Source: Selaginella tamariscina
Lineage: Eukaryota > Streptophyta > Lycopodiopsida > Selaginellales > Selaginellaceae
Assembly (NCBI GenBank): GCA_003024785.1
Contig: PUQB01000740.1
Coordinates: 1 to 64,000 of the forward strand
Direction of reading: 5' to 3'
Length of the DNA stretch: 64,000 nt
In this document: piece after piece, positions 5,281-59,530 of the stretch
Layout of the letters: each line of letters starts with the position of its first letter
How positions within the stretch are numbered: position 1 is the stretch's first letter
Notes under the pieces: model-generated
Told to the model about the DNA's origin: nothing
Database searches by the model: none
Seen by the model: the letters and a program-made list of their open reading frames with translations, nothing else
Position numbers and translations under genes: made by a program

Positions 5281-5289
5281 AACAAATTA

Positions 5290-5706: not shown

Positions 5707-5905
5707 ATATCACACAATTTTTACACATGTTGTAATTCACTAGGTCAAAACTATGACAACTTGCGACATCTCTTGCTTCTTTGATAGTGATCAATGATGA
5801 ATCAAAGCCTTGATTGGTGCTACATCCTACGTATCAATTCAATGTTAGTGTTGACTTCAATTCTTCTAGCAACAACAAGTTGCTACAAATCAAAAAACTG
5901 ATTGG

Positions 5906-5982
5906 GCATTTTAGGGGCATGCATGTCCAAGGTTGTGAAGAAAGACTTTTTGTACCAAGGATAGTGCGTGCCCCTAAAATGC
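5906..5982. repeat. Inverted repeat with 14-bp perfect arms
   Basis: GCATTTTAGGGGCA (5906-5919) pairs with TGCCCCTAAAATGC (5969-5982) across a 49-nt loop. The copy at 21921-21968 has a loop of only 20 nt with intact arms, and the copy at 50939-51015 has the long loop. Confidence 0.75.
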
Positions 5983-5989
5983 TGCGAGT

Positions 5990-8560: not shown

Positions 8561-8569
8561 CAATTACAA

Positions 8570-9640
8570 GATTATTGTAAATTGTAATTAAATATATGTG
8601 TCAATGGTCTAGTATAATAACTTCCTTACTTAATTACTGTCTAGTTTAATAACTTCCGTAATTAAATATTAAAATGTGCTGGTTTTGCTGATCCTAAGTA
8701 ACAGACATTATTTCTTTGCTAGTGTATTGTAACATACTACATAATCGCATGGTACATACTTGCATATTTTTTTCATGATTTATTTATAAACCCATACATT
8801 AGTGAATCATATGAGTTGTTTCCAATCAACCAATCACTATTTACAATTGACTCATTAACTTTCTGCTAACTCAACTTTAAAACTCATAAAAAAGTTAGCC
8901 TTGTACACTCTTCTTATTTATAAATAAATATCTTGTTTATAATTTCAATCATTTTAAAATTAAAAATAAAATATATTTACCTTATATTTTATGTTTAAAT
9001 TATAACATTTAAGGAAAAATACTATATTTAAATAAGAAACTTTATAAATAAATTCTATATAAGTATTGTATTCATTTAAATTTTCTAATAATTAAATCTA
9101 GTATTTAGCCTTGCCTTGTCCACATGAGGTTTATTCATTGTAATGACTAAATTTAATTTAATCTCATATTTTATAAATTAACATGTTTTTGCATTTCTAC
9201 TTATTCCATTCTTACTTCCCTTATCATTACTTCTCAACTTGATTAGGCTCCTACATTTTTTTATACTCTAATAAAAAATAAACAAGAGATAATTAAAATG
9301 GTTAAATGTTACTCTTATAATAGCATTCTCAACAGTTAGAGTTGACAACCACATGGGTAGGGTCGGGGAGAATACTGCATTTCATATACATATATAGTTA
9401 ACTATAAGAAAATCCTAAAATAGAGCATCTATGAGGTTTAAGATGTATATAAATAACAAGGGTACATATAACAGTATAAGAAAGAGTCTCCTTTTTAACT
9501 TATAAAAGTTAAGGTATGGAATATAAATAAAGCATTCTTAAATGCAATGTGTGAAAATATACATTAAGTAAAATACAATTTAACATTAGTTTGCATATAT
9601 AAATGTAAGAGTACCTCTGCAACACACCATACAAATATGA
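8570..9640 (-). repeat. Block X, inverted orientation
   Basis: This is the reverse complement of 230-1335. For example, CAATGGTCTAGTATAATAAC near 8603 mirrors the end of X near 1285. Together with F-box d it forms the left arm of a ~2.2-kb inverted repeat whose right arm is F-box a plus block X (15060-17345). Confidence 0.85.
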
Positions 9641-9824
9641 GTGTGTGGGTGTCAAATTGGGTTTGATTAAGGGTACATGGTCAATTGGATTAGGGTTTAG
9701 CATCATCAATGAATGAATGGCCGTCGGTTCTTGGATGCACGCGTGGAATCTTGGAAGCGTGCATGGAATCGTGGGTATTTAAGGAATGTCCTATGCCCTA
9801 GGTATTATTTAATCTCATTTTTTC

Positions 9825-10849: not shown

Positions 10850-11205
10850 CACCACCCTTCTCCGTCTCAGACAAAAGTGGCCAGGATTGATTTGGCCCAC
10901 CAGATTAGGAGACAAAGAAGGATGGCGGGATTAATCCCACCACCCCTTCCATGCATGTTGGGCGAGATTAATCCCGCCCACGACACTCTCATATGCATAA
11001 TGATGGTGGGCGGGATTAATCATGCCCCACACTCATTGAGACATGAAGGGTGCCCCTTCCATGACCAGTGAAGGGGATTAATTCTCCCACCACCTCCACG
11101 CCTCCTCAAACAGTCGAGCCCACCAGGCATAGAAGAGTCGGTGGGATTAATTCGCCACCCTTTATGTCTCAATGAGTGTGGGGCGGGATTAATCCCACCT
11201 ACCAG
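10850..11205. repeat. Palindrome array I, copy 1
   Basis: About eight variants of GGCGGGATTAATCCCGCC occur here, for example at about 10924, 10960, 11007, 11073, 11131 and 11183. They are separated by spacers of roughly 25-45 bp. The array starts exactly where the F-box d module is truncated (TTGTTGGA, then TATTAATTCC). A 64-codon open frame across it (10877-11071) is made of repeat-encoded GLIPPP and GGIN peptides and is not a gene. Confidence 0.85.
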
Positions 11206-12310: not shown

Positions 12311-12640
12311 TTTCTTCAGCAAGGATTTCTTCATTTCTGTAATTTTCTCTCTTTAGATCTTCTTTTTTCTTAATAGTGATCACCTAAGGAGCGACATTAA
12401 ATTAGGTGCTATTGTTTATAAAAAGCACAGCGCCTTCAATGCTGTTTACAAGTAAGTATTATAAACAAATTTAGAAATACTTATAAAAATTCACTCTCTT
12501 ACATTCTCTCTTAAAATTAAAATTTAGGGGTTTAGGAATCCATTAGCATTACATTATATTCATTAGGGATTTATCTCGTTTACACATCCTTTTCACTTAA
12601 AATTCTCGGTTAGCCGAGGCAACGGGATTAATCCGGCCAT
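12310..12640 (+). repeat. P module 2
   Basis: Diverged partner of 6540-6900, sharing the GCTGTTTACAA and TATTATAAACAAATTTA segments and the AGCCGAG motif, and leading directly into palindrome array II. No open frame is seen. Confidence 0.6.
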
Positions 12641-13315
12641 TTTTTTTTGCCTCTTTAAAACTCTTTAAAACATGAAGCCGTGGCATGATTAATCCGGCCA
12701 ATGCTTCCCGCCTCTTAGAAAGGCAGCGGGATTAATTTTGAAACAACTCTTGAAATGATGAAGAGTTAATAAATTTATTATAAAGAATTATTGGCGGGAT
12801 CAATCCTGCCCATCATTCTAAGAGGCAGAGAAGGGGTGGCGGGATTAATCTCGCCACCACTTCCCTGTTTTAGATATTTGTGGGCAAGATTTATCCTGCC
12901 GACCAGTTTAGGAGGCAGGGAAGCATTGACGAGATTAATCCTGCCACTCCCTTGAGATCTCTCTGAAATCATAACTTCGGAGAGGATTATTCCCGCCACC
13001 TATTCCCCATCGGTAAGAGTTGTGAGTGGGATTAATCCGCCGACTCTTCCTCATCAGAGAGAGTTGGCGATGGGATTAATCCCGCCAACTCTCTCCAACA
13101 AGGAGTAGCCAGCGGTGGGATTAATCCCGCCAACTTTCTTCAACGAGGAAGAGTCAGTAGTGGGATTAATCCCGCCGCTTCTCTTTGACGAGGAAGAGTT
13201 GGCGACATGATTGAACCCGCCAACTCTCTCCAACGAGGAAGTAGTGGGCGGGATTAATCATGCCCACCATTTTATTAGGCAGGGAAGGGGTGGCGGATTA
13301 ATCTTGCCACCAATT
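12615..13315. repeat. Palindrome array II, copy 1
   Basis: About fifteen palindrome variants occur here. From 13027 they are evenly spaced (starts at about 13027, 13073, 13114, 13158, 13203, 13247 and 13294; steps of 41-47 bp). The spacers are related to each other and are themselves imperfect palindromes (for example CTTTCTTCAACGAGGAAGAG), so two palindromes alternate. Minus-strand frames here encode GGINPT-type repeats and are artefacts. Confidence 0.85.
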
Positions 13316-13429
13316 CTATTAATCAAGCATGATAATCTATAGTTATACATAATTATATATTATTGCACACACATATATATTAAGCACCCTCGATTTAGAT
13401 TTTTTGGAAATATTACATAAATAAATATC

Positions 13430-14560
13430 ATAAATAACACAATTATTTATGTGTAGGATAATATGTTTAATACTGGAAATAAAGTATGTCTTCTTCGGAA
13501 CAACGAGATAGTTGGCACTTGAATTGTGGAAGTTCGAGATGATAATGCGTATGTCACAATATTGCCTAAGGATCTTATGTGTATGTATGGGTGAACACCA
13601 TTTGCAAGCATGTTAAGGTTCCTAAAATGGAATTTGAAGAGGGTTCTCCTGTATTGTAGAATGTAGATGAATTAAAAGCTGATACATAATATGTAGAGTC
13701 ACAAATAAATAGTAGTACGAGTTCACCAAATGATGGCTTGCCTGCTGTAATGGATGAGATGATTCTTTTTCTTATGAGATTGAGATTGGGAGAGGCATCA
13801 TCACAGTTATAAATCCAATAGAAGCCGTATCAAAAGAGAAACTAGGGGCCTACTTCGTGGGTGTAGTTGTGACAGAGGTTTCACCTAATGGCACATTGCA
13901 TCTTGGATCCCTCGTGAGGTGCGAACATATGAATTAAGACGGCGAGATGGTTGAACATATTCAGGGTTGGATTTCAATAATAATAACTCGAAAGAACAAC
14001 CCATATTTGAAGAGGTTTCTTGCATTGGTCCTATAGTAAAAAAAGGCGATTCATGGGTTGCAGATCTGCCCTTACAAGTTTTAGCAAGACGGTCAAGATC
14101 GATCTTACATCTTCGACAAGTGTTACTAGCATTTCCACGATTGACTGCTGCAAGAAAGTATTGTCAAATGGCAAACCGGAATGAAATTACCCAATGTAGA
14201 CATGTCTTTTGTATGCTCACCCAAAAGAAAAGGCATGAGTTTGTATATGCTGCACTAACTGGTGTATTAATAGAATGGCCTTGGACACATGTTATCAGAG
14301 TACATCCATGGTATTTAATAAGGTGGCCATTTACTTCAAAGCTTGGTACATTATATATGGGATCCCAAAAACCACGTTCTATTGTCAAAGGGATGAGTGG
14401 CTAGATGGAGCGTGCACCTAGTATACGAGAACACTCGCCTAGTCAAAACCCACTCTCACATTATGGAAGCCATACAGATACTCAAGGCTTTTGTACAAGC
14501 AAATGCAAACAGGATGCCTCACAAATGCCAAACCACAAATGCAGGGGTTAAGAAAAATTT
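13430..14560 (+). pseudogene. DDE-type transposase relic, N-terminal part
   Basis: Plus-strand frames carry CIGPIVKK, CQMANRNEITQCRHVFCM, KKRHEFVYAALTG, a segment reading YFKAWYTIYGIPKTTFYC in the best copy (59280 region), and AIQILKAFVQANANRMPHKC. A Cys-rich start followed by a 'YGI-x-K-x-TF' helix block is usual for the N-terminal half of the same plant transposon ORFs. The middle and C-terminal parts are elsewhere in the unit, so the gene is split. This copy has frame breaks. Array II lies immediately 5'. Confidence 0.55.
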
Positions 14561-19732: not shown

Positions 19733-20258
19733 ATGGCATATCCCGAGCTTCTTCCTGGCTTGCCGCAAGACATTGTGGAGGTAGAAATCCTGCCACGCTT
19801 ATCCAGGAAATCTAGGTGCGTTGCGTGTTTAGTGTGTAAAGATTGGAAGAGAAGCATCGAACAACTGCCTCCTTTGCCGCCTCCTCACGGGGTTGTAGTT
19901 TACAATGAAGAGAAAACATGCTACCAATTTATTGAGTTCAGTGAAGATGGTGTGAAGTTCGATTTTGCTATATGCGGAAAGATTGGACTTAAACCCATAG
20001 GCTACTATAATGAATGGCATTATTTGGGTATTTAAGCCATTTTGTTATTGTTACATGGACATGTGCAGTGGTAAACTTGAATGGAAAAATCTACCATGGA
20101 GGAATGAATTACACCTAAGTAATACATGGTCAAATGAATTATCCTTAATCTCTTTGATTGGAGAAGATGTAGTTTTAGTATACAAAGGATTAAACGGTTT
20201 AAATCACCAAATAAACCATGGTGGTTTAGATCAACAAATTTTAAACCAATTTATATAA
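19733..20258 (+). pseudogene. F-box gene copy c, unit 2
   Basis: Carries the same NEWHYLGI-stop lesion as 3711. The two halves are 19733-20035 and 20010-20258. Confidence 0.7.
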
Positions 20259-21275
20259 TGATTTTAAATTAAATTAAATACATAAATTTAATCTTATATT
20301 CTTTAATTTTATAAATACTTTTTCAATTTATTTATTATAGAAATTATTAATAGGGTTTACTATTCATGAATAGTAAGAATCATGGTTTAATCTAAAAATG
20401 TTAATCCATACGATCCTACTAAGAATGAGTGGATTAGGTGCAAGCAACAACGGAGGGTGCATAATATGCATGATTTGCAATGCCAGTAACATTGTGGAGA
20501 TAGTTTCTACAATTGGCAATTTTTGCATGAGATGACGGGTACCGGCTACACCACTCATAGCGGACTTGGAAAGCTTAAGTTTGAGCTCTCCCAAGTGACA
20601 GTCACGACAAGCTGGATCCTTTCTTGTCAGCTTCTCGAAAAATAATTGCAATGCAATAACTTAATATTAATAAATTGTTGTGTGTGTATGTAGTATGTAT
20701 CAATATGTACATATGTATGTGTCTATCTATATAAAATGTGCACACACACATGCACCTCAGCCAGCATTTGTGCAACCTGCTTGTTGGAGGCTTGGCCCAT
20801 GGAGCATGCAAATTTGGCCAAAACTGTTGTTAATGGTGTTGGTTCTAAAATAAATAGAACACTAACCACCACTTGAGCATGTGACAAAGCATCTATCGAG
20901 CATGTTTACATATCATATGCTTCTTCTTCAAAATCGATTGCACCACCACATGATCACACATGGAAGAACCATAAAGATAAGCATGAAATTTATGGAATGC
21001 TCAAACAATCATCAAACACTCCTTACTTGTAGTCAAATAATTGAGGTTCAGATTGCTAAGACTTTAACTAACATATAAAATGAATTAGAAGTAGGAATTT
21101 CTTACATGAGATCAACACTCATATCAATATTTAAAGCATTAATACAAAAATAAAGGGATGAAAGAAATCAAGGTAATGAAGAAAGGACAAAGTTAAGAGA
21201 TGAATAAGAGATTAAAAAAATATTGACACTTAGAGACTAAGAGAAAGAAGAGAACTATAGTAAAGCATGAAATGG

Positions 21276-21720
21276 ATTGTTTCATCAGACAAATGAGAAA
21301 CAAATTATGCCAAGTATGTGGCTTGCCCAAGAACTATTGAAGCTCGTGATGTGTCTTTGACACAAAAACTCTTCCATCACGAGAAATAACAACTCTTAAA
21401 TACTTGACAGAAGTTTAGCCAAACTTAATAAAATCATCCATTTGTGGTATAGGGTAGCTATTTGGTATTGTCACATAATTTGCAAGTCATAAATCTATTG
21501 TGAAATGCATGTCACAATTTACTTCCTTGATGATATGAGACTCAAAAGCCCAAGAACTACACAAAGGTTGCATCACACCTCGAGCTAACATATATTGAAC
21601 AACTTGTGTCATAACCTTTCCCTCTCCCCCTAAGTCAACGAAGCAAAGGGCTAATTGATATTTATGAAAGGGCCCTGGTCATGATGACCCAGGGTTGCTT
21701 GAGTCTTTCTCATATATCCC
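21276..21720 (-). pseudogene. Ty3/gypsy reverse-transcriptase relic, unit 2
   Basis: Copy of the 5290-5706 relic with the same internal deletion, plus a lost base in the GGGCCCCTGG run (here GGGCCCTGG, about 21669), which breaks the frame earlier. Confidence 0.65.
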
Positions 21721-22534
21721 ACATATCACACAATTTTACACATGTTGTAATTCACTAGGTCAAAACTATGACAACTTGCGACATCTCTTGCTTCTTTGAT
21801 AGTGATCAATGATGAATCAAAGCCTTGATTGGTGCTACATCCTACGTATCAATTCAATGTTAGTGTTGACTTCAATTCTTCTAGCAACAACAAGTTGCTA
21901 CAAATCAAAAAACTGATTGGGCATTTTAGGGGCACTTGTACCAAGGATAGTGCGTGCCCCTAAAATGCTGCGAGTTTAATTCTTTTAGTAAGAGGTTGGT
22001 GCATTGCCTAAGCAAGATTAACAAGGGAAATTGTATAAAATTGTACAATTATGTGTACAAAAGAATACAGATAGCTACGTTAATGCACAACATGCACTTG
22101 ACATCATTTATTGATTGAATTTTGATATATATTTAAGTTATTCATTTTTAAGGAAACATTATAGATCCTCAAATTTTGAGTGTGAAAAGGCATGTGTATT
22201 AGCTTAAGTAAAGAATGACAATTGTGATACTCACAGAGAAACATGTGCACAAGGGTTGTTGTAGCCTAGGAAATTCTCTCTCTCACACACACGTGTGCAA
22301 AGATTAAATTGGTTAAGAAACATATGTAGTTGATCATGAACTTCAACTCGAGAAGCGTATTGAGCACATCTCTCAATCATCTCAAACTCTCCATGAAGTT
22401 ACAACAACTCAAGAGTGTACTCCACTCTATATCCTGGTTGATAGTGGTTGACATTGTCAAACATCTAGCTGGCGTGAGCGAGGAGAAGCAGAGGACATAC
22501 AACGGGTGCAGACTAACAACTCAAATCCATATTT

Positions 22535-23075
22535 GTATCTCTCACAAGGGGTTTTTCATTTGTATTACTTTATTTCTTCAGATTTCCTCTTTCCTTGTTA
22601 GGAGCAACACTAAATTGGGTGTTATCATATAAAAAAAGCATGACACAGCTGTGCTGTTTACAATCAAGTATTATAAACAAATTTAAAGTACTTATAAAGA
22701 CTCACTCACTTACAATCAAAATTTAGGGTTTACATAAACAAATTTATATTCTCTTTATAAATACATACTACTTTTATGAATCCATTAGGATTGCACTAGA
22801 ATTTGTTAGGGATTTATCTTATTTACACATCCCATTTACTTCGAATTATCGATTAGCCGAGATTTCATATAATTCTCGATGGGGAATTAATCCCGCCAAT
22901 GCTTCCCCGCCTCTTAAAATGGTAGGCATGACTAATTTTGTCCACAACTTTCTGAATCAGGGAGAGGTGGCATGATTAATTCTGCCAATGCTTCCCCACC
23001 CACAACTCTTTGAGGGTGACGAGATTAATCTGCCCACCATTTTAAGAAGTGGGGAAGCATTGACGGGATTAATCT
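22535..23075 (+). repeat. P module 1, unit 2
   Basis: Matches 6540-7090, with the same few decayed palindromes before the transposase relic. Confidence 0.6.
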
Positions 23076-26842: not shown

Positions 26843-27200
26843 TTCCACCCCTTCTCCGTCTCAGACAAAAGTGGCCAGGATTGATTTGGCCCACCAGATT
26901 AGGAGACAAAGAAGGATGGCGGGATTAATCCCACCACCCCTTCCATGCATGTTGGGCGAGATTAATCCCGCCCACGACACTCTCATATGCATAATGATGG
27001 TGGGCGGGATTAATCATGCCCCACACTCATTGAGACATGAAGGGTGCCCCTTCCATGACCAGTGAAGGGATTAATTCTCCCACCACTCCACGCCTCCTCA
27101 AACAGTCGAGCCCACCAGGCATAGAAGAGTCGGTGGGATTAATTCGCCACCCTTTATGTCTCAATGAGTGTGGGGCGGGATTAATCCCACCTACCAGGCA
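26843..27200. repeat. Palindrome array I, unit 2
   Basis: Same eight or so palindrome variants as 10850-11205. The reading frame across it fuses with upstream microsatellite sequence to give a false 114-codon ORF. Confidence 0.85.
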
Positions 27201-28093
27201 TGGAAATATGACATAATAATATTAAAAACATTTGAAAACAATCATAACACATTATATATATATATATATATATTAATATAAAATCTTTATACTAATATAA
27301 ACTAAATCCATATATTATTAATATAAATTTACTCTAAACACTAAACATATGTAAGTCCAGTGTATAGTGTGTGTAACTATAAATGTTTGATTTGGGATTT
27401 AAACTTTAAATCATAAATACAAAGCTAGATGCTTTATTTATATCGTGATCCACTCATCGGCTTGTGCATGTGTGTGCATATGTATCTTGTAAGTGCTACT
27501 AATGTGTGTGCACGTGTATATGTAAATTTTTTATTGTGTTTATATAATGTGTGCAACAGAAACGAATTAAAGTGAAAATGATATTAATATACACACTATG
27601 AACATAATATTATATCATTTTATCTAATATATAGTCATATATATTTTAAATATATATTAATTTAATATTGATAATAAGGTTTAACAATGGAATATTCTTA
27701 AAATAATAAGAAATTAATTGAGAAAATCCCATTAATATATACAAATGTAGAATAATTACTAAAATAATTAACTAATTTAATTATGATAATCATGTTTAAT
27801 ATTGGAATATTTTTAGAATAATAAGAAAATAATAAAGAATATCCCATTAAATAAAGAAATGTAGATTAATTACTCGAATAATTAAGAAAATAATATTAAT
27901 AAACACACTATGAATATATTATAAATGATACATAATAATATATCAATTTATTTATTGTATAAGTATATATATTTATATATATACTTAATAATATGTACTA
28001 GAATATTAAGAATGTAGAATAATTACTAAAATTTCATAATATTAAACAGCTTGAATCACTTGAATCATATTAAATAAAATTTATAAAAATAAT
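27201..28093. other. AT-rich tract, unit 2, ends at the array breakpoint
   Basis: Matches 11206-12145, including a short (TA)n at about 27252-27273. No gene is seen. Confidence 0.7.
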
Positions 28094-28380
28094 GCACGTT
28101 GTAACTAAAGTGGGCATGATACGTGAAAATGGGAATATAAAATAAATTACTAATTAATACTTAAGTTTTAATTATTAATTAATCATTTAATTAATATGTA
28201 ATTAAGCCTTAAATATTAATTAATTAATTAATTAATCCTTCAATAACCTTACTTAGTAAGGAATATTCCTAAAATATCTTAGAATATTCATATTATTCTA
28301 AAAATAGTTTACAATAATGAAGAAATACTATCAAACATAATTACAAATGAAATCATTTTCTTATCAACATGTTAATTTTT
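28094..28380. other. AT-rich sequence 3' of the FCP1-like gene
   Basis: Unique sequence with no coding frame. It contains a short TTAA/TAAT run (TTAATTAATTAATTAAT, about 28218-28236) and an imperfect TTAAG/CTTAA palindrome patch around 28170-28215. It should hold the 3' UTR of the gene ending at 28381. Confidence 0.5.
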
Positions 28381-29553
28381 TTATAAATACTTTCTTTCTA
28401 TCATACAAAGAAATCTTTTCATTTTGTCTAAATCATCACTCTCCGGATTAATCAAATCATTTTGGTCAATATCTTGATGTTGTTGCCACCACTTAACACT
28501 CTCACGAATGCAATTGGGAGTTGCCATCCTTGTTAATACATAAGATGTGATAAGAGAAGGTCTGCATAAAGGCTCATCTAAAAACTGACGTTCCTTAAGA
28601 ATAATATTATAAAGCGCCCGGTTGCTATCCTTCATTTTATAAAATTCAATATCACGAGAAAGAAAAGCTTCAGGAAATGTATGATACGGTGGATACTGCT
28701 CACAAAAATTTTCGAGATTCTTCTTTCTGAGGCACGTATCCAAGTAGTTCACTAGCTCATCCATGATATCGGTATCAGAATATGGATCGAAAGTGATTGG
28801 ATGAATACAAGCAATGTTTTGGTTGAGCATAGCCTTCTGAGGAGAGTCGTCTACTACTAAGATATGTGCATTCTTTTATCCTTAAGCGACTGATCTCCCC
28901 ATGAGTCCCAATTATTCTTTCATTCTTGAAGAAGTATGGCTTGCTTTCCTTTCTTATATTGTGAAATTCGAGAGGTTTATAACACATTCGCTGGTCAAAA
29001 ATCCAATCTTTACGAATCACCTCTTCTGCAACACTACAATGTTTCTTAAGTAAATTCAACAGCGGTGTTAAGTTATGAATCTGCATGCATGACCAAATCC
29101 CCACAAGCGCACCCATCTCCTTAAGCTTTTGAAAGAGACGATCCAACCCTGGACGAAAAATAATATCATATCGAAATTTACCATGACAAGGAATGAAATC
29201 TCCTTGTTTGATTTCTTTTTTCTATCCTCGGGCCTTTGTCGATGAAGCAGAACACCATTGACATCCAACAACACAATATGGCCATGAGTAACATGAGATA
29301 GCGTTGCCTCTTGAATACTTTGCAAATCACTTGTTTGCTCCCTTTCACATTTATCCGTTGCCACTATTTCGTTGCCTATCCCTTCATCATTTAATTGTAC
29401 ATCATCCTTACAAGATTCAGATATTGCATGCGCTGAAGAAATTGATTTCGGAACTGAAGCCAATAAAAATGATGATGCAAAAACTGAAGTGGCCCCCATG
29501 GTAACGATGTTTTGAGCTGCATTATTATCCATTTCCTGCATGAACTCTGTCAT
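28381..29553 (-). CDS. FCP1/NLI-interacting-factor-like phosphatase (HAD superfamily), two frame breaks
   Basis: About 390 residues if both breaks are bridged; start taken at the ATG 29551-29553. Residues 1-90 are unique. HGHIVLLDVNGVLLHR (Asp97, Asn99; 29257-29265) is the DxDx motif of FCP1-type HAD phosphatases in the plant DLNGLL-type form. Then come IFRPGLDRLFQKL, VGIWSCM, YKPLEFHNIRK and LVVDDSPQKA (28834-28851), the last being the second acidic motif, and a tail ending MIERKYL. The family removes phosphate from proteins such as the RNA polymerase II CTD; Asn at the second Asp suggests altered or lost activity. Frame shifts occur at an A6 run (29216-29221) and an A4 run (28874-28877), each mended by one base, so assembly error is likely. 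A possible 5' intron (29555-29597, 43 bp) would place the start in an upstream ATG. A ParB-like gene lies upstream on the same strand. Confidence 0.75.
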
Positions 29554-29599
29554 TCTGACATGTGGCACAAGAAATTGTCGCCAAACCCCTCTCTTACCT

Positions 29600-29825
29600 C
29601 ATGGCAATGCTGAAAATCCATGTTCTCAATTATTTCATTACATCTGCAAAATGATAATTAGCTGACCTTAAAATTATCAAGGTATATTATTTACCTTGTT
29701 AATGTGTGACCCATGTTTGAACTAAAAGCTTCATTAATCCTTGAGAATTTATTTTCTGTACAAATATAAAAGAAATATACAAAAATGCCTTATGTTACAC
29801 TCATTTACAACTATTCATCACTCTA
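29600..29825. other. Spacer between the FCP1-like and ParB-like genes
   Basis: About 230 nt without a frame. On the minus strand TTATCATTTTGCAG (about 29643-29656) looks like a splice acceptor, so a 5' leader exon of the FCP1-like gene may lie at 29598-29642. Both genes read the same way, so a single transcript is not excluded. Confidence 0.35.
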
Positions 29826-32797
29826 TCAATTCATTATCAATTCTTCTTCGCTATTACCTTCTGAATGAGGCGAAGAAGGTCTAAGCCGCTTGTGAGATGG
29901 TTCAAGATCTTCTGCATCTTCTATTGATGTTTCCATGGGTCCTGGAGTGTGCGAATGTTCTGTACTCCTCGAGATAACTTCCGGTCTAATATCTGATTGA
30001 TGTTCGTTCTCAGACTCCGAGATTGAACCAGATTCACCTTCAGAGCTATCGCACTTATCTGGAGGGAACTTTCTCAAATACGCCTTTATGGATTCGTTGG
30101 GGTACTCAGTTGAGACCCAATCTATCCACTTGTTCAGGTCCTCAACCATGGTCTTATCCTTCTCAACGGCAAACACACATGTATGCCGAAGGTAACACTC
30201 CTTCAAGACGGACCCCCTAGTGCAGTAGTCAAAAACCCACGCATCACTGTGAGGACCCCTGATCAAGTTGACGATGCTCCGTGCCGCTTGACTTGTAATG
30301 TTTGGATAACGTACATTGCCGAATACGTCACTCATACCTATCGGTGTATCGGATGGAGGTTCAGGGCCGTTGGAGTGCAAACAGATGCCTGGCCAGTCAT
30401 TTGGAAGCTTGAAATTGTTTGGCGCATTCCTAACAACCAAGTGAACAACAGTATCAATGCACTTGGGATTAGCATCGTTCATATAAAATCCTGTCCAACG
30501 ATGTCTATTCTTCTTGGCGAAGGCGAAGGCAAAAGTATCGGTGACATGAGCAAGAATCAAGAAATAAATACCTGAAAAAGTAGGTATCAGTGAAGAGCGC
30601 AAGCATGAATTCAATAATAAATACCTTCTATGTATATGCTTGCACGGCTAAGTTTCTCCACCAGATCCTCTAGTGCCCTATCTGTCGAAAGATTTTTTGA
30701 CACCCGCCGATCCATCACGAACAATTGAAACGGTTTCCTACAAGCAGTGATGTTACCCCATAAAGTCTCCGAATCTAACAACAAACATCTGTAGGGCTTG
30801 TCGTGATTCGTAGCATCCTCCTTTATAAGGTTCAATTCGGTTCTCCGCTGCTGAAGGACTGCCATAAGAGAAGGCGTCATCCCAATGTTCTCCTTTTTGG
30901 CGTTGGCGTGCAATAGATTTTAGATCTTCCGATTGGTTCACCCATTCGACAAGCATATCATCGTTCGTCACATGCAAATATTTGCTAACCTCTTCATATG
31001 TTGAAGTCGAGGTCCAACCCAGTTTGTGGCAGTGTATTCCCAACCACTCCTTGAAATGCCTGACCGTCTTCAACTCCATTGCCTTGAGATGAAAAGGAGA
31101 GGTTGGGCTGCTGTTATTAATTTGTAGTTTGCCATCGATCACCAAATCAGCCAAGACTTCCATCTCCTCCATCGTTGTTCCATTTAAAGGCTTCAACCAT
31201 GTGAGCTTGAAATCGTTGTCTACATCCTTTGTAGATTGAACAGACTTAGCCTTCGGCGTCTTACTGGGTTTCTTTGCAGACTTTTCTGAGGGCTCCCCTT
31301 CACTTGTCTGCTTCTTCTTCAGTGTTCCTTTTGAAAAGGATTCCATAATCCCCAACCATTTGGCAAAGATCCTATCTTCGGGGCAAGAAATCAACATCAT
31401 CAGAAATGATGTTTCCTTCCCGCCCACCTGGGCAAAATCAACTGCTGCAATTTCTTCAACTCTCTGAGGAAAAAGACAGATTAATATACCGGCGAGATAA
31501 ATCCCGCCCAAACAATTTGCTTACCCGGTATTCCGCAGATTGTGTATTCCCTGCGGTAGCTCTTTGTGGTCGCTGAAGAGATTCCCACACGGCTCGCGTG
31601 TGTTTAAACTTCTCCCATATTTTGCTGTTGTAGTGGTTGGTGTCGGCAGCGTCCCATTCCGCCGATAACTTATGGTACTGCTCGATTGTGAGATTCGGCT
31701 TAGCTAAAAACGCCGATCTTTTTGTCAGCTTCTCACGGGTATGCTCGGAAAGTTTTGTTGCCATCGTTCCTTTGTTGTGTTCATCGAGAAGTCGTTGGGC
31801 TGCCGTTATTGTGTGCTGGCCACTAATGATGTAGTACTTGATAGATCTTTTATTCTCCGTCTGAATCTTCATGAGTTGTTCTGGTGTTGTGATCCAGACT
31901 TTGTCAGCACCCTTCCTTCTTTCATAGTATGGACACAAAACAGCATTATGTGGAACGGTATAAGAATTGTCGTCCTTCATCTTCTCCATGAGCTCAGCTA
32001 CACGTTCCTGGTTGAGTGGCCTGTAATTGAAGTTTGGGTTGACGCTGCAATATTTAACCCTACAAGGATAAATCTTATCATCCAACATCATTTCCTTGTG
32101 ACTTATTGCAGCATGAGATGCCACAGGTGCAGCTGACAAAACGATTGATGATTTTCTTTTGCGATCCGAATCAACATGTGTGATCCCCGACTGCAGCTGT
32201 TCTAGTGTTCTCGGCACACTCTCCAGCTCCCGAAGCTTCCTAAGCAAATTGAACGTGATCTGTAGAGAACCTGAGACCGAGCCACCTTCTCAATCTCCTT
32301 ATGATGTCGCTGTGTTCTTCTTCAATGTCAAGAGGGAAGATTGCTCCACTTGCTGATTTTCTGTATTGTGAAGCAATATCTCCTGACAATACACCTACTC
32401 GATGAGTCTGAAGATCTTCGAAGTAGACATCCAGATGGATCCCCTCCATAGATGGGCTTTCGTTGAGTTGAAGAAGAACTCCAAGGTCAACATCATTAGT
32501 GAACACGTGAACGTCATTATCCACAAGTCGACAAAACCACCCGAGATTAATGTTGTAACTGACGACCTCTGGATCCGAGAACGTGACATTGGATGGAACA
32601 AGGCATATCTGTCGAGCATCGTCCAATCTGGGTTCGCAGCCTGCTTTCGGGTGCTTGACTAGCGAATCTACTTTCCATTGTTTTGCTTGTCCATGAGATG
32701 TGACAGAGGTTAATTTGACAGCAACCATGGTTGCTCCAATGCGCTTCCCATTTATCTTAAAATATGGCCAAGTTGATTCCAGAATCCCCCTGCCCAT
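29826..32797 (-). CDS. Multi-exon gene with ParB-like and DNA-methyltransferase-like segments, two frame breaks
   Basis: Exons 31525-32797, 30625-31463 and 29826-30571, joined by GT-AG introns that keep the frame. The start at 32797 is the first usable ATG (MGRGILESTW); the leader is uncertain. Order: an unrecognised N-terminal part; VNPNFNYRPLNQERVAELMEK and YYIISGQHTITAAQ (31807-31830), which match the start of a ParB/Spo0J-type domain and its IxxGxxR-type loop, with Thr for Arg; a Lys/Ser-rich linker (KKKQTSEGEPSEKSAKKP); CLLLDSETLWGN, where a DPPxG motif would sit; DAWVFDYCTRGS (about 30208-30246), resembling SAM-binding motif I (DxFxGxGS) after the catalytic motif, as in beta-class DNA methyltransferases; and an acidic Ser-rich tail. 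Frame breaks near 32250 and 30910. Key residues of both enzyme motifs are degenerate, so a structural role or decay is likely. I do not recognise a named family. Confidence 0.6.
30572..30624 (-). other. 53-bp intron bounded by an 11-bp direct repeat
   Basis: The donor GTATTTATT and the acceptor TTTTTCAG restore the frame (E-G-IYFLILAH, phase 1) between two ORFs that otherwise end here. AGGTATTTATT occurs at both splice junctions. Confidence 0.8.
31464..31524 (-). other. 61-bp intron containing a palindrome-family copy
   Basis: Donor CCGG|GTAAGC and acceptor TTTTTCCTCAG|AG, phase 0, join SAEYR to RVEEIAAVDF. The intron contains GGCGGGATTTATCTCGCC (plus strand 31491-31508), the array palindrome with two changes. 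Confidence 0.8.
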
Positions 32798-32839
32798 CTC
32801 TTCTCCTGCTCTTGTCTTTAATGTCACTCAATTCCACAT

Positions 32840-32962
32840 CTGAATACAAAAATGATTAGTTCAAGTATCCGAGTATAACAGATTTTATTTTAATTCTTAC
32901 CCAGAATTTGACGACGACTCCATACTAATGACTCGATCTCCTTGTTTGATCAAATCGTCCTT
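32840..32962 (-). other. Likely upstream exon and intron of the ParB-like gene
   Basis: A 62-nt exon (32901-32962) sits between TTTTGCAG and GTAAGAATT, and a 61-bp GT-AG intron (32840-32900, ending TTGTATTCAG) precedes the main exon. The exon reads KDDLIKQGDRVISMESSS in one frame. That frame hits a stop 5 codons into the next exon, so either it is leader sequence or a third one-base error is present. Confidence 0.45.
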
Positions 32963-33063
32963 CTGCAAAATAATACACTATAAATATAAATTATATAAAA
33001 ACGCACACACACTTGTATAAACCCGAATATAAAAATAATACACAGAGAGAAGTAGACGTAATT

Positions 33064-33150
33064 AACTGTCCGAAGCTCACATTTGTGTTAGTGCAAAAGA
33101 AAGATAACATTTCGTTTTAGAACCACCACAAATGTGAGCTCTGGACAGTT
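33064..33150. repeat. Hairpin with 24-nt arms, pre-miRNA-like or small TIR element
   Basis: The arms at 33064-33087 and 33127-33150 (AACTGTCC..AGCTCACATTTGTG and its reverse) pair at 22 of 24 positions around a 39-nt loop. Pairing extends a few bases further with a small bulge. It lies about 100 bp beyond the likely 5' exon of the ParB-like gene. No second copy is seen in the window. Confidence 0.6.
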
Positions 33151-33239
33151 TTACATAGATTCCTAGCTTTTACTCGAAATATTATGATAAGATGATAAAA
33201 GTAAATAAAATGAGATATGCAACTTATATATACTAATAC

Positions 33240-33600
33240 ACATATATATTCACATGGAATTAATCTCGCCACCCCTTCAATGCCTCCTGAAAGAGTGGGC
33301 GGGATTAATCTCGCCACCTTTCTGGAGGCCTTGAACGGGAGTGCGGAATTAATCTTGCCACCCTTCTCGGTCTCAGAGAGAACTGGGCAGGATTTATTTC
33401 TCACACCCCTTCAGTGACTCCAGAAAGGAGGCGGGATTAATCTCGCCCACCATGTAATGGTTAAATGAATCTCGCCACCCTTCCCAGTCCTCCATTGGTA
33501 TGTTGTAAACCTTCTACGTTCAGACAGAAACGTTTGGGATTGGTCCGACTCACCAATGGAGAAAAAGGAAGGGTGGCGAGATTCATTCTCCAACAGGCAT
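33240..33600. repeat. Degenerate edge of palindrome array III
   Basis: Seven weak variants (for example at 33256, 33298, 33343 and 33429) with one to four changes. CCCTTC and CCACC flank most of them. AACCTTCTACGTTCAGACAG (about 33508) recurs with changes near 34047, so part of the array was duplicated. Confidence 0.7.
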
Positions 33601-33609
33601 TGAAGACTC

Positions 33610-34494
33610 GGCGGGATTAATCCCGCCGCCCAGGGCCTTCACTCGTCCCTATGCGGCGGGATTAATCCCGCCGGACGCCAATTCCCTGCGCGGAATCGGG
33701 CGGGATTAATCCGCCGCCTAGGCACTTCAGGCCAATGGCGGCGGGATAAATCCCGCCCGATTCGCGCAGGGAATTGGCGTCGGCGGGATTAATCCCGCCT
33801 CCCAGGCCCTTCACTCGGGCCTTAGTCGGCGGGATTAATCCCGCCGAACGCCAATGCCCTGTGCGAAATCTTGCGGGATTAATCCCGCCGCCTAGGCCCT
33901 TCAGGCAGGCCAATGGCGGCGGGATAAATCCCGCCCGATTCCGCGCAGGGCATGCGTACGCGGCGGGATTAATCCCGCCCACCATGTAAGGGATGGTGAA
34001 ATTAATCCCACCACCCTTCTCAGTTCCCTCCATTGGTATTTTGTAAACCTTCTCCGTCTCAGACAGAGTTAGTCGGGATTGATTCAACATACCAATGGGG
34101 TAATGAAGGTTCGGAGATTAATCCGCCACCGGGTAATGAAGGTTCGGAGGCTAATCCCGCCGCCCTCTCGTAAATCATGCGCTCACACATATATATTGGC
34201 TGCGGCATTTTTGAACAGGGATGGGTGGGGCGGGATTAATCCCGCCGCCCAGGGAATCAGCAGGACATGAACGGCGGGATTAATCCCGCCGCCCTCCGCG
34301 AAGGGCATGAGCGGGGCCGGATTAATCCCGCGTTCATGTCCTGCGTGAATTCCTGGCGGGATTAATCCCGCCGCTCTAGACAAACCGAAGCGCGGATTAA
34401 TCCCGCCGCCCATGGCCTCGTGGGGCCTCGGCGGGATTAATCCCCGCCCATCCCTGTAAATGCCCTGGCGGAATCCGGCGGGATTAATCCCGCC
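33610..34494. repeat. Palindrome array III, dense core
   Basis: About nineteen copies of GGCGGGATTAATCCCGCC, many perfect. Starts from 33610 are 33655, 33699, 33740, 33782, 33828, 33872, 33918 and 33962, steps of 41-46 bp. Four-monomer blocks repeat (33610-33781 and 33782-33961). The spacer after 33655 (ACGCCAATTCCCTGCGC) returns inverted after 33740. After a weaker zone (34000-34190) a second cluster runs to 34494. Open frames on both strands here encode only GGINPA or GLIPP repeats. Confidence 0.9.
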
Positions 34495-35399
34495 CATTAG
34501 AACCTTCACACAGGGTTGCTTGAGTCTTTCTCATATATCCTACATATCACACAATCTTTACACATGTTGTAATTCACTAGGTCAAAACTATGACAACTTG
34601 CGACATCTCTTGCTTCTTTGATAGTGATCAATGATGAATCAAAGCCTTGATTGGTGCTACATCCTACGTATCAATTCAATGTTAATGTTGACTTAAATTC
34701 TTCTAGCAACAACAAGTTGCTACAAATCAAAAAACCGATTGGGCATTTTAGGGGCATGCATGTCCAAGGTTGTGAAGAAAGACTTTTTTATCAAGGATAG
34801 TGCATGTCCCTAAAATGCTGCGAGTTTAATTCTTTTAGTAAGAGGTTGGTGCATTGCCTAAGTAAGATTAAGAAGGGAAATTGTATAAAATTGTACAATT
34901 ATGTGTACAAAAGAATACAGATAGCTACTTAATGCACAACATGCACTTGACATCATTTATTGATTGAATTTTGATATAAATATTTAAGTTATTCATTTTT
35001 AAGGAAACATTATAGATCCTCAAATTTTGAGTGTGAAAAGGCATGTGTATTAGCTTAAGTAAAGAATGACAATTGTGATACTCACAGAGAAACATGTGCA
35101 CAAGGGTTTTGTAGCCTAGGAAATTCTCTCTCACACGCACACGTGTGCAAAGATTAAATTACAATTGGTTAAGAGAACATATGTAGTTGATTCATGAACT
35201 TCAACTCGAGAAGCGTATTGAGCACATCTCTCAATCATCTCAAACTCTCCATGAAGTTTACAACAACTCAAGAGTGTACTCCACTCTATATCCTGGTTGA
35301 TAGTGGTTGATCATTGTCAAACATCTAGCTGGCGTGAGCGAGGAGAAGCAGAGGACATACAAACGGGTGCAGACTAACAACTCAAATCCATATTTGTAT

Positions 35400-39674: not shown

Positions 39675-40040
39675 ATATTAATTCCGCCACCCTTCTCCGT
39701 CTCAGACAAAAGTGGCCAGGATTGATTTGGCCCACCAGATTAGGAGACAAAGAAGGATGGCGGGATTAATCCCGCCACCCCTTCCATGCATGTTGGGCGA
39801 GATTAATCCCGCCCACGACACTTCATATGCATAATGATGGTGGGCGGATTAATCATGCCCCACACTCATTGAGACATGAAAGGTGCCCCTTCCATGACCA
39901 GTGAAGGGGATTAATTCTCCCACCACCTCCACGCCTCCTCAAACAGTCGAGCCCACCAGGCATAGAAGAGTCGGTGGGATTAATCTCGCCACCCTTTATG
40001 TCTCAATGAGTGTGGGGCGGGATTAATCCCACCTACCAGG
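39675..40040. repeat. Palindrome array I, unit 3
   Basis: Same order of variants as 10850-11205. One copy here is perfect (GGCGGGATTAATCCCGCC at about 39759), where unit 1 has CCCACC. Confidence 0.85.
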
Positions 40041-41245: not shown

Positions 41246-42240
41246 TTTTCTTCAGCAAGGATTTTTCATTTCTGTATTTTCTCTCTTTAAATCTTTTTTT
41301 TTCTTAATAGTGATCACCTAAGGAACGACATTAAATTAGGTGCTATTGTTATAAAAAAAACACAGCGCCTTCAATGCTGTTTACAAGTAAGTATTATAAA
41401 CAAAATTTAGAAATACTTATAAAAATTCACTTTCTTACATTCTCTCTTAAAATTAAAATTTAAAGGTTTAGGAATCCCATTAGCATTACATTATATTTCA
41501 TTAGGGATTTTATCTCGTTTACACATCCTTTTCACTTAAATTCTCAGTTAGCGAGGCAACGGGATTAATCCGCCATTTTTTTTTTGCCTCTTTAAAACTC
41601 TTTAAAACATGACAGCCGTGGCATGATTAATCCGGCCAATGCTTCCCTGACTCTTAGAAAAGAGCAGCGGGATTAATTTTGCAAAACAACTCTCTGAAAT
41701 GATGAAGAATTAATAGAATTATTATAAAGAATTATTGACGGATCAATCTGCCCATCATTCTAAGAGGCAGAGAGGGGTGGCGGGATTAATCTCGCCACCA
41801 CTTCCTGTTTTTTAGATATTTGTGGGCAAGATTTATCTGTCGACCAGTTTAAAAGGCAGGGAAGCATTGACGAGATTAATCCTGCACTCTCTTGAGATCT
41901 CTCTGAAATCATAACTTCGGAGAGGATTATTCCCGCACCTATTCCCATCGGTAAGAGTTGTGAGTGGGATTAATCGCGCCGACTCTTCCTCATCAGAGAG
42001 AGTTGGCGATGGATTAATCCCGCCAACTCTCTCCAACAAGGAGTAGCCAGCGGTGGGATTAATCCCGCCAACTTCTTCAACGAGGAAGAGTCAGTAGTGG
42101 ATTAATCCGCCGCTTCTCTTTGACGAGGAAGAGTTGGCGACATGATGAACCCGCCAACTCTCTCCAACGAGGAAGTAGTGGGCGGGATAATCATGCCACC
42201 ATTTTATTAGGCAGGGAAGGGGTGGCGGATTAATCTTGCC
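41245..42240. repeat. P module 2 and palindrome array II, unit 3
   Basis: Matches 12310-13315. Several palindromes here have lost single bases (for example GGATTAATCCGCC at about 42099). Confidence 0.8.
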
Positions 42241-42399
42241 ACCAATTCTATTAATCAAGCATGATAATCTATAGTTATACATAATTATATATTATTGCAC
42301 ACACATATATTAAGCACCCTCGATTTAGATTTTTTGGAAATATTACATAAATAATATCATAAATAACACAATTATTTATGTGTAGGATAATATGTTTAA

Positions 42400-43490
42400 T
42401 ACTGGAAATAAAGTATGTCTTCTTCGGAACAACGAGATAGTTGGCACTTGAATTGTGGAAGTTCGAGATGATAATGCGTTATGTTACAATATTGCCTAAG
42501 GATCTTATGTGTATGTATGGGTGAACACCATTTGCAAGCATGTTAAGGTTCCTAAAATGGAATTTGAAGAGGGTTCTCCTGTATTGTAGAATGTAGATGA
42601 ATTAAAAGCTGATACATAATATGTAGAGTCAAATAAATAGTAGTACGAGTTCACCAAATGATGGTTTGCCTGCTGTAATGATGAGATGATTCTTTTTCTT
42701 TATGAGATCGAGATTGGGGAGAGGCATCATCAAGTTATAAATCCAATAGAAGCCGGTATCAAGAAAAAGGAAACTAGGGGCCTACTTCGTGGGTGTATTG
42801 TGACAGAGGTTTCACCTAATGGCACATTGCATCTTGGATCCCTCGTGAGGTGCGAACATATGATTAAGACGGCGAATGGTTGAACATATTCAGGGTTGGA
42901 TTTCAATAATAATAACTCGAAAAGAAACCCATATTTGAGAGGTTTCTTGCATTGGTCTATAGTAAAAAAAGGCGATTCATGGGTTGCAGATCTGCCTTAC
43001 AAGTTTTAGCAAGACGGTCAAGATCGATCTTACATCTTCGACAAGTGTTACTAGCATTTCCACGATTGACTGCTGCAAGAAAAAGTATTGTCAAATGGCA
43101 AAACCGGAATGAAATTACCCAATGTAGACATGTCTTTTGTATGCTCACCAAAAGAAAAGGCATGAGTTTGTATATGCTGCACTAACTGGGTGTATAATAG
43201 AATGGCCTTAGAACATGTTATCAGAGTACATCCATGGTATTTAATAAGGTGGCCATTTACTTCAAAGCTTGGTACACTATATATGGGATCCCAAAAACCA
43301 CGTTCTATTGTCAAAGGGATGAGTGGCTAGATGGAGCGTGCACCTTAGTATACGAGAACACTCGCCTAGTCAAAACCCACTCTCACATTATGAAGCCATA
43401 CAGATACTCAAGGCTTTTGTACAAGCAAATGCAAACAGGATGCCTCACAAATGCCAAACCACAAATGCAGGGGTTAAGAAAAATTTCATA
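42400..43490 (+). pseudogene. Transposase relic, N-terminal part, unit 3
   Basis: Matches 13430-14560. The block with AWYTIYGIPKTTFYCQRDEW is open in 43234-43521, while the upstream Cys-rich part is in another frame. Confidence 0.55.
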
Positions 43491-55899: not shown

Positions 55900-56262
55900 T
55901 AATTCCACCACCCTTCTCCGTCTCAGACAAAAGTGGCCAGGATTGATTTGGCCCACCAGATTAGGAGACAAAGAAGGATGGCGGGATTAATCCCACCACC
56001 CCTTCCATGCATGTTGGGCGAGATTAATCCCGCCCACGACACTCTCATATGCATAATGATGGTGGGCGGGATTAATCATGCCCCACACTCATTGAGACAT
56101 GAAGGGTGCCCCTTCCATGACCAGTGAAGGGGATTAATTCTCCCACCACCTCCACGCCTCCTCAAACAGTCGAGCCCACCAGGCATAGAAGAGTCGGTGG
56201 GATTAATTCGCCACCCTTTATGTCTCAATGAGTGTGGGGCGGGATTAATCCCACCTACCAGG
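55900..56262. repeat. Palindrome array I, unit 4
   Basis: Matches 10850-11205. Confidence 0.85.
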
Positions 56263-57310: not shown

Positions 57311-58260
57311 TCTGGTTTTTTCTTCAGCAAGGATTTCTTCATTTCTGTAATTTTCTCTCTTTAAATCTTCTTTTTTCTTAATAATGACCTAAGGAGCGAC
57401 ATTAAATTAGGTGCTATTGTTTATAAAAAAGCACAACGCCTTCAATGCTGTTTACAAGTAAGTATTATAAACAAATTTAGAAATACTTATAAAAATTCAC
57501 TTCTTACATTCTCTCTTAAAATTAAAATTTAAAGGTTTAGGAATCCATTAGCATTACATTATATTTCATTAGGGATTTATCTCGTTTACACATCCTTTTC
57601 ACTTAAAATTCTCAGTTAGCCGAGGCAACGAGATTAATCCGGCCATTTTTTTTTTGCCTCTTTAAAACTCTTTAAAACATGAAAGCCGTGGCATGATTAA
57701 TCCGGCCAATGCCCCGCCTCTTAGAAAGGGCAGCGGGATTAATTTTGCAAACAACTCTTGAAATAATGAAGAGTTAATAAAATTTATTATAAAGAATTAT
57801 TGGCGGGATCAATCCTGCCCATCATTCTAAGAGGCAGAGAAGGGGTGGCGGGATTAATCTCGCCACCACTTCCCTGTTTTAGATATTTGTGGGCAAGATT
57901 TATCCTGCCGACCAGTTTAGGAGGCAGGGAAGCATTGACGAGATTAATCCTGCCACTCCCTTGAGATCTCTCTGAAATCATAACTTCGAGAGGATTATTC
58001 CCGCCACCTATTCCCCATCGGTAAGAGTTGTGATGGGATTAATCCCGCCAACTCTCTCCAACAAGGAGTAGCCAGCGGTGGGATTAATCCCGCCAACTTT
58101 CTTCAACGAGGAAGAGTCAGTAGTGGGATTAATCCCGCCGCTTTCTTTGACGAGGAAGAGTTGGCGACATGATTGAACCCGCCAACTCTCTCCAACGAGG
58201 AAGTAGTGGGCGGGATTAATCATGCCCACCATTTTATTAGGCAGGGAAGGGGTGGCGGAT
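57310..58260. repeat. P module 2 and palindrome array II, unit 4
   Basis: Matches 12310-13315 but has lost one repeat: the copies at 13027 and 13073 of unit 1 are merged into one at about 58033. This shows loss of a whole palindrome-plus-spacer unit. Confidence 0.85.
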
Positions 58261-58419
58261 TAATCTTGCCACCAATTCTATTAATCAAGCATGATAATCT
58301 ATAGTTATACATAATTATATATTATTGCACACACATATATATTAAGCACCCTCGATTTAGATTTTTTGGAAATATTACATAAATAAATATCATAAATAAC
58401 ACAATTATTTATGTGTAGG

Positions 58420-59530
58420 ATAATATGTTTAATACTGGAGATAAAGTATGTCTTCTTCGGAACAACGAGATAGTTGGCACTTGAATTGTGGAAGTTCGAG
58501 ATGATAATGCGTTGTGTACAATATTGCCTAAGGATCTTATGTGTATGTATGGGTGAACACCATTTGCAAGCATGTTAAGGTTCCTAAAATGGAATTTGAA
58601 GAGGGTTCTCCTGTATTGTAGAATGTAGATGAATTAAAAGCTGATACAGAATATGTAGAGTCACAAATAAATAGTAGTACGAGTTCACCAAATGATGGCT
58701 TGCCTGCTGTAATGGACGAGATGATTCTTTTTCTTCATGAGATTGAGATTGGGAGAGGCATCATCACAGTTATAAATCCAATAGAAGCCGTATCAAAGAG
58801 AAACTAGGGGCCTACTTCGTGGGTGTAGTTGTGACAGAGGTTTCACCTAATGGCACATTGCATCTTGGATCCCTCGTGAGGTGCGAACATATGAATTAAG
58901 ACGGCGAGATGGTTGAACATATTCAGGGTTGGATTTCAATAATAATAACTCGAAAGAACAACCCATATTTGAAGAGGTTTCTTGCATTGGTCCTATAGTA
59001 AAAAAAAGGCGATTCATGGGTTGCAGATCTGCCCTTACAAGTTTTAGCAAGACGGTCAAGATCGATCTTACATCTTCGACAAGTGTTACTAGCATTTCCA
59101 CGATTGACTGCTGCAAGAAAAAGTATTGTCAAATGGCAAACCGGAATGAAATTACCCAATGTAGACATGTCTTTTGTATGCTCACCCAAAAGAAAAGGCA
59201 TGAGTTTGTATATGCTGCACTAACTGGGTGTATTAATAAAATGGCCTTGGACACAGGTTATCAGAGTACATCCATGGTATTTAATAAGGTGGCCATTTAC
59301 TTCAAAGCTTGGTACACTATATATGGGATCCCAAAAACCACGTTCTACTGTCAAAGGGATGAGTGGCTAGATGGAGCGTGCACCTCAGTATACGAGAACA
59401 CTCGCCTAGTCAAAACCCACTCTCACATTATGGAAGCCATACAGATACTTAAGGCTTTTGTACAAGCAAATGCAAACAGGATGCCTCACAAATGCCAAAC
59501 CACAAATGCAGGGGTTAAGAAAAATTTCAT
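58420..59530 (+). pseudogene. Transposase relic, N-terminal part, unit 4 (best preserved)
   Basis: A 214-codon frame (58929-59573) runs unbroken through CIGPIVKK, CCKKKYCQMANRNEITQC, RHEFVYAALTGC, VAIYFKAWYTIYGIPKTTF, AIQILKAFVQANANRMPHKC and on into block X sequence. The first ~500 bp (58420-58925) is broken. A Cys-rich block followed by the YGI-x-KTTF block fits the N-terminal half of DUF7869-type transposon ORFs. Lack of the rest makes it non-functional alone. Confidence 0.6.

Follow-up and report, generated by a model that had tools for sequence, protein, structure and literature searches.

Arrays of an 18-bp palindrome in a Selaginella tamariscina DNA transposon: candidate intronic binding sites with probable traces of template switching

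Positions 33610-34494 of a 64,000-nucleotide stretch of Selaginella tamariscina DNA (contig PUQB01000740.1, hereafter the window) hold a regular array of an 18-bp palindrome, P, separated by related spacers. This array is inherited with a transposon and does not stand free; it probably represents a cluster of candidate binding sites in the first intron of a transposon gene. That the element carrying it is a DNA transposon of an ordinary kind, with an unusual internal organisation, is well supported. Our preferred explanation, which we hold with rather better than even confidence, is that each of the two transposon genes bears a P array in its first intron, that P is the site of a dimeric regulator, and that the nested palindromes built by the spacers are by-products of template switching.

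Results

An array of palindromic sites with related spacers

At a tolerance of three mismatches, 16 copies of P (GGCGGGATTAATCCCGCC) lie within 33610-34494, and nine of them are exact. The sites are 40-47 bp apart save for one interval of 35 bp and another of 267 bp, the latter running from 33962 to 34229 and filled with decayed units; over 20 arrays, the median interval is 44 bp (275 intervals shorter than 60 bp). The original prediction had both the regularity and the coordinates right. Decayed units begin at about 33241, to the left of the start that it gave, and the array is part of a repeated element.

The whole window contains P at 70 places (up to three mismatches), compared with none in 100 dinucleotide shuffles; ten sites are exact, nine of which fall at 33610-34477. 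The genome-wide search for the 18-mer that had been proposed as a check returned 27,128 exact sites in 300,702,823 bases (1391 contigs), and the backward control returned none. When read by eye, 99 of the first 100 genomic places listed fall into groups of at least three sites with gaps under 1 kb. A viral collection yielded one exact site in one contig, and the array was not found there. In the open-access literature searched, we found no occurrence of the 18-mer and, among the papers listed, nothing relevant on subterminal palindromes with moss or on intronic palindrome arrays in transposons. P holds two inverted copies of TCCCGCC, a motif resembling the E2F core. An E2F reading of P was considered and set aside; E2F binding sites were not named in the papers listed.

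It had also been claimed that blocks of four units repeat and that spacers return in the opposite orientation, and both claims held. The stretch 33610-33781 is identical to 33782-33961 in 156 of 182 aligned columns, and spacer G of the second block resembles B' (letters denote spacer classes, and a prime marks inversion). The spacer at 33673-33698 recurs in inverted form, two letters shorter, at 33758-33781, and CAGGACATGAAC at 34261 has its reverse complement at 34332. When the 16 window spacers (18-40 nt) were aligned both ways, three direct and two inverted pairs were found; each of 300 letter shuffles gave none of either kind. The alternation of palindrome and spacer is as regular as in a CRISPR array, a resemblance remarked upon before, but the likeness is superficial: the host is a nuclear genome of the green lineage, and the spacers group into classes of related sequence that recur across 39 copies of the array.

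The array belongs to a DNA transposon

Self-comparison revealed that the block at 28.09-34.51 kb of the window is foreign to the local 16-kb repeat. The block is a truncated transposon copy (Table 1), 98.9% identical to the copy named C760 over 28092-33804 (~5.75 kb), and a sharp left boundary is common to the window copy, C760 and a third copy, C948. On its right side the window copy breaks inside a class K spacer at ~34507, where the local 16-kb repeat continues; as read by eye, CAGG is common to the break and the sequence beyond it.

Two complete copies, C760 and C948, measure 14,554 and 15,557 bp, and their inverted repeats read ATGCA(C/A)GTTGTAACTAAA(G/A)TGGGCATG. The terminal inverted repeats of C760 are 27 bp long and alike at 25 of the 27 positions. 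The same ends are present in C948, C519 and C689, the last two of which were read at their ends alone, the ends being matched to each other by their separation (about 15.1 kb in C519 and 14.2 kb in C689). Flanking duplications of 4 bp are exact in two of the four copies (ATTG/ATTG and TAGG/TAGG) and match at three of four letters in C519 (ATAG/TTAG) and C689 (TATT/TAAT); together, the four copies suggest a target duplication of 4 bp.

In full copies, gene 1 (minus strand) is followed by array 1, a centre, array 2 and, on the plus strand, a gene with a DUF7869 domain. Paired arrays occupy matching places in C760, C948, L009, L013-L016 and L018. In C760, the arrays sit 5.2 kb and 3.8 kb inside the ends, and a reading of them as subterminal arrays was abandoned once the ends had been mapped at those distances.

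The two full copies contain 22 and 25 exact P sites, or 36 and 44 if up to three mismatches are allowed. If all 27,128 genomic sites lay in such copies, they would amount to roughly 1,085-1,233 full-copy equivalents, and we estimate that the transposon was recently amplified to about a thousand copies. Near-identical copies are spread over many contigs: 40 of 1299 first-look genome candidates for a 451-bp query were scored and showed 99-100% identity, and the count of matches to the 277-aa frame of gene 1 (Table 1) is a lower bound, with 140 matches scored of 5851 first-look candidates. The near-identity of copies, both in DNA and in this frame, indicates that the spread was recent. One locus, L026 on contig C134, repeats the 3451 letters of 31350-34800 without a single difference, break included, and must therefore be a duplicate of the window place and not a separate insertion; it is either a recent segmental copy or a contig duplicated in the assembly.

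Table 1. Coordinates of the features discussed, in the window unless the fetched C760 stretch is named
Feature	Position	Strand	Remarks
Truncated transposon copy	28092..34507	-	Keeps the left terminus with gene 1 and array 1; lacks the centre and all beyond it (array 2, DUF7869 gene, right end)
Left terminal inverted repeat, ATGCACGTTGTAACTAAAGTGGGCATG	28092..28118	+	Same 27 bp starts the C760, C948, C519 and C689 copies; inverted at right ends
Gene 1, in pieces	28381..32923	-	Frames of 164, 176, 273, 255, 277 and 195 aa
277-aa frame of gene 1	31456..32289	-	At least 140 genome matches at 91-100% identity
Putative start ATG of gene 1	32923-32921	-	In a small exon
Array 1, full extent with decayed first units	33241..34507	.	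Seen in the sequence; upstream of gene 1
Two four-unit blocks, with spacers C B' A B in the first and C G A B in the second	33610..33961	.	Nested palindrome around A in each
D' - F - D palindrome	34247..34354		Spacers 34247-34272, 34291-34314, 34333-34354
Older array-2-side remnant	12443..13484	+	About 80-86% identical to modern copies
Donor-like GTAAGT of the remnant	12443-12459
Array of the remnant	12621-13264
Acceptor-like signal of the remnant	13447
Start of DUF7869 gene in the remnant	from 13484
Four P-like sites, small group in local 16-kb repeat	10924..11199	.	Also 26918-27191, 39759-40033, 55980-56255
Left end of C760	3267 of C760 stretch		Followed by gene 1 on the minus strand
Array 1 of C760	about 8440-9796 of C760 stretch
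Centre of C760	between the arrays		3.5 kb, AT-rich, microsatellite-rich
Array 2 of C760	about 13359-14042 of C760 stretch		Followed by DUF7869 gene, plus strand
Right end of C760	about 17820 of C760 stretch

The surroundings of the element were also inspected. On both sides of the window copy (1-28093 and 34508-64000), the DNA consists of segments of about 16 kb that recur three to four times, all facing one way, and are 96-99% identical over most long pieces. These segments hold frames that look F-box-like by eye, in both orientations, together with remnants of the DUF7869 element; a retrotransposon remnant within the repeat was recognised from an RT_RNaseH fragment at 2000-9700 on the minus strand (E 2.6e-7, with X at stops). 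The right flank of C760 (L023:840-6000) has by eye the look of a LINE-type retrotransposon on the minus strand, which suggests insertion into a mobile element. Beyond the right end of C948, a second, inverted piece of the transposon family was found (L024:2847-5991, that is, 19847-22991 of the C948 stretch), indicating that copies cluster or nest. Microsatellite-like runs resembling those of the transposon centre occur within the listed frame of a chlorophyll-binding gene (L059:1210-2154), where they are probably introns. The host genome has 26 PF00504 matches (chlorophyll a/b-binding genes), which assign it to the green lineage; one of them, compared with PDB, matched 238 sequences at E 1e-20 or better, and the best 60 of these 238 are light-harvesting proteins, one labelled as a multifunctional fusion protein.

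Two outward-facing genes with arrays in putative first introns

Both genes point outward from the centre, and a P array lies upstream of the coding part of each. For the frames of gene 1, no relatives were found in Pfam, NCBIfam, PDB or the protein collection searched. A frame near the end of the gene gave a weak FCP1/NIF match that fell below the cut-off (E 0.018), and the predicted model of a gene-1 frame was poor (pLDDT 37.4). A ParB-parS reading of gene 1 came from a motif noticed by eye, YYIISGQHTITAAQRLL, and was discarded, as no ParB match was found in the same four collections.

The frames of the second gene contain DUF7869 (PF25273), with E values of 2.9e-13 in C760 and 1e-12 in L009 (X at stops). 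Four metagenome relatives of the protein share 42-49% identity with it; D169, D327 and E366/D367 are invariant across the four, and a GHTHED block is present in P0001. The spacing of these motifs suggests that the product is a putative DDE/D transposase. The predicted model of a relative was poor (pLDDT 37.7), and the term DUF7869 was not found in the open-access literature searched.

Splice-like signals flank both arrays, and relevant observations can be listed as follows:

(i). For the second gene, ten modern copies were examined (C760, C948, L009, L011-L016 and L018). A donor-like TGTTTACAA|GTAAGTAT precedes array 2 in all ten and at four window places. An acceptor-like TTATGTGCAG|GACAATATG follows it in nine, being missed in L011 at the tolerance used; the older window copies carry a TTATGTGTAG form of the acceptor.

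(ii). For gene 1, a donor-like CAG|GTGAGATC on the minus strand lies beyond array 1 in seven of eight copies, with AAGTGAGATC in L016. On the gene side of the array, an acceptor-like TTTTGCAG at 32963-32970 is followed by the ATG, and the frame that opens there joins the long frame across a second intron (joined by hand), whose acceptor is TTTTTGTATTCAG at 32840-32852. Both acceptors are present in 38 of 38 other copies, with up to two and three differences.

From the position of these signals, both arrays appear to lie in leader introns of outward-facing genes, each in the first intron of its own gene; for the window copy, we infer that array 1 lies in the first intron of gene 1. The window also holds an older remnant of the array-2 side (Table 1), which is repeated at 41378-42413, 57449-58446 and 62253-63299.

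Spacer order and orientation are nearly always inherited

Thirty-nine copies of array 1 were compared: the window, C760, C948, seven from C1, and 29 of 30 loci retrieved with the 451-bp query (the remaining one is the window), among which L026 duplicates the window. With spacers outside 18-55 nt treated as gaps, their 674 spacers sorted into 46 classes. The common string reads L C B' A B C G A B J, two longer units, and then (M or D') F D E A' H K B A E' A' N P. Two classes, G and inverted I, are similar to inverted B, and the B that follows K is similar to inverted H; the array can thus be read as nested palindromes strung together, with their centres at A, F and K.

Each slot has a nearly constant orientation. 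Between C and A, 29 units are inverted B or I and 25 are G; all 22 units found after A and before C are forward, and so are all 29 after A and before J and all 24 D units between F and E. Among 138 neighbour contexts (674 units, 39 arrays), only one, in L029, holds a class in both orientations. Spacer order and orientation in array 1 are nearly always inherited over the 39 copies.

P itself is common to array 1 (193 sites) and array 2 (159 sites), while the spacers of the two arrays are mostly unrelated: when 65 array-1 spacers were scored against 46 array-2 spacers, the median best score was 0.20 and the maximum 0.56, compared with 0.85 within array 1. One spacer class (class D of a separate classification) is common to both arrays, in opposite orientation, with nine forward and nine reversed over 18 arrays. 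These comparisons bear on the idea that P arrays are selfish tandem DNA that grows in the introns of the element and is of no use to it. Such neutral growth would agree with the instability of palindromes and with the number of P cores, which varies from 12 to 28 in ten array-1 copies. However, it fits poorly with the presence of the same P in two arrays whose spacers differ, with the constancy of the P core, and with the finding that the older window copies have an array in the corresponding position, and we consider it quite doubtful.

Two changes that complete a palindrome

In the slot before F, 23 of 34 arrays carry M and nine carry D'; of the other two, one has a unit that is half M and half D'-like (L028) and one an oversized gap. 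With L026, the letter-for-letter duplicate of the window, left out, the independent count of D' is 8 of 33. In the window, spacer 34247-34272 is the D' that replaces M. D' is not inverted M: it matches the reverse complement of the D that follows, at 28 of 28 letters in L053 and, with two border letters counted, at 28 of 30 in C760 and L051. Elsewhere the match is 26/28 (L047), 26/30 (C948), 25/30 (L039), 20/29 (window copy) and 17/28 (L032, in which D itself is damaged). M also occurs in L013 and L018, which lie across the midpoint of the midpoint-rooted tree; hence, M is probably the older state before F. On a tree of 32 rows, the passage from M to D' required five changes, compared with a mean of 8.1 after shuffling. 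Good support was found for none of its 25 inner branches, so that the tree resolves the copies too poorly for a count of events, and the change may have arisen once.

The second change was found in L029, where an inverted copy of the first C occupies the slot of the second (27 of 28 letters agree, compared with 21 of 28 to the usual second C). As a consequence, the units C I' A I C' form a single, longer palindrome; in the seven other arrays with this slot, C is forward (one in eight changed). Excerpts of PMC8604942 and PMC3820800 describe how template switching between the arms of an inverted repeat homogenises the arms, and in quasipalindrome mutation, as treated in excerpts of the same papers and of PMC8794818, the copying of one arm makes an imperfect inverted repeat perfect. 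Both D' and the inverted C of L029 match the product expected if replication switched templates between the arms of an inverted repeat, and that interpretation is supported. The likeness to quasipalindrome mutation lies in imperfect inverted repeats being made perfect by arm copying; the difference is that the arms are joined here by repeated 18-bp palindromes and that transposition multiplies the product.

Two origins had been offered for the inverted spacers: inversion of segments between palindromes, and growth by hairpin or template-switch replication. At the two slots just described, the latter is supported. Inversion between palindromic sites, whether site-specific or homologous, would flip spacers in place and make the array a switch, an idea with which the symmetry of P, the occurrence of spacers in both orientations and the C unit of L029, opposite to the same class in seven other arrays of its slot, are all compatible. 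Nevertheless, the single mixed context among 138 speaks against a running process, and both D' and the L029 unit are inverted copies of neighbours and not the old unit turned round. We regard a switch of this kind as very improbable.

Conservation and folding of P

Conservation within P was examined in 559 distinct sites with up to five mismatches, drawn from 1260 instances, many of which lie in related copies and are thus not independent. Inner pairs 6-9 (GATTAATC) keep the letters of P in 502-543 of the 559 sites, and the outer pairs do so in 381-492, a count in which single-base indels in G runs register as outer mismatches. Complementary double changes per pair number 0-13, compared with 0.1-8.5 expected, and are near the independence value at most pairs; an excess of compensated changes was detected at pair 5-14 (12 vs 4.7) and a slight one at pair 4-15 (13 vs 8.5). 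Such a distribution is more in keeping with a site for a protein than with a structure maintained by pairing alone.

Predicted folding is extreme. As RNA, the 386 nt at 33600-33985 fold with -306.9 kcal/mol (z -18.9), and as DNA the same stretch gives -180.8 (z -22.3). When the spacer letters were shuffled (60 shuffles), the fold of the array weakened from -299.5 to a mean of -236.4, and that of array 2 of C760 from -290.6 to -222.0; spacers add, therefore, about 63-69 kcal/mol of pairing beyond P alone.

The strength of the fold and the contribution of the spacers make a role in RNA a live rival: the arrays may act as intronic RNA, folding into long nested hairpins that supply small RNAs or delay splicing and thereby limit or tune the element. 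The compensated changes at pairs 5-14 and 4-15 point in the same direction. On the other hand, compensatory change is scarce at the other pairs, many arrays lack one arm of a nested palindrome, and a strong fold follows from inverted duplications whatever their origin. On balance, we hold this role to be unlikely.

Discussion

In the explanation that we prefer, P would be bound as a two-fold symmetric site by a dimeric DNA-binding protein, encoded either by the element or by the host, and the bound regulator would control both genes from a shared central promoter region. Palindromic P sites would let nascent strands fold back, template switching would then copy one arm onto the other and leave nested inverted spacers as by-products, and the altered array would be spread by transposition. 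A more specific version assigns the regulator to the element: the gene-1 protein would bind P as operator arrays in both introns, sense copy number, and set the expression of the transposase and its own, the roughly 27,000 P sites per genome titrating it. We consider this version speculative and, as a whole, rather improbable.

The element resembles CACTA (En/Spm) transposons in being a high-copy plant DNA transposon with two proteins and with short motifs in direct and inverted orientation. CACTA elements begin, as their name indicates, differently from the ATGCA ends found here. They generate target duplications of 3 bp; in the present element, 4 bp fits two of four copies exactly, a sample too small to fix the length. 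Excerpts of PMC8195511 describe TnpA binding to subterminal repeats made of units of 10-20 bp; in contrast, the arrays of this element are central, and each lies upstream of one of a divergent gene pair. A further difference is that the gene for the putative transposase is of the DUF7869 type, and in the frames scanned no Transposase_21/24 domains were found, only sub-threshold matches to Transposase_23. In the apparent length of its target duplication and in having inverted repeats, the element resembles superfamilies with 4-bp target duplications, such as Sola and Academ. The same length is given for Ginger1, Ginger2 and some IS481EU elements in excerpts of PMC10045372.

Repeat arrays bound by transposon proteins are already known near transposon ends. 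If our reading is true, central arrays in both first introns, with about 27,000 identical sites, would mean a different regulation of the element, and those sites would offer a natural titration experiment. In addition, the copies, roughly one thousand in number, document how palindromes convert adjacent sequence into perfect inverted repeats; among 39 of them, two events of this kind can already be seen.
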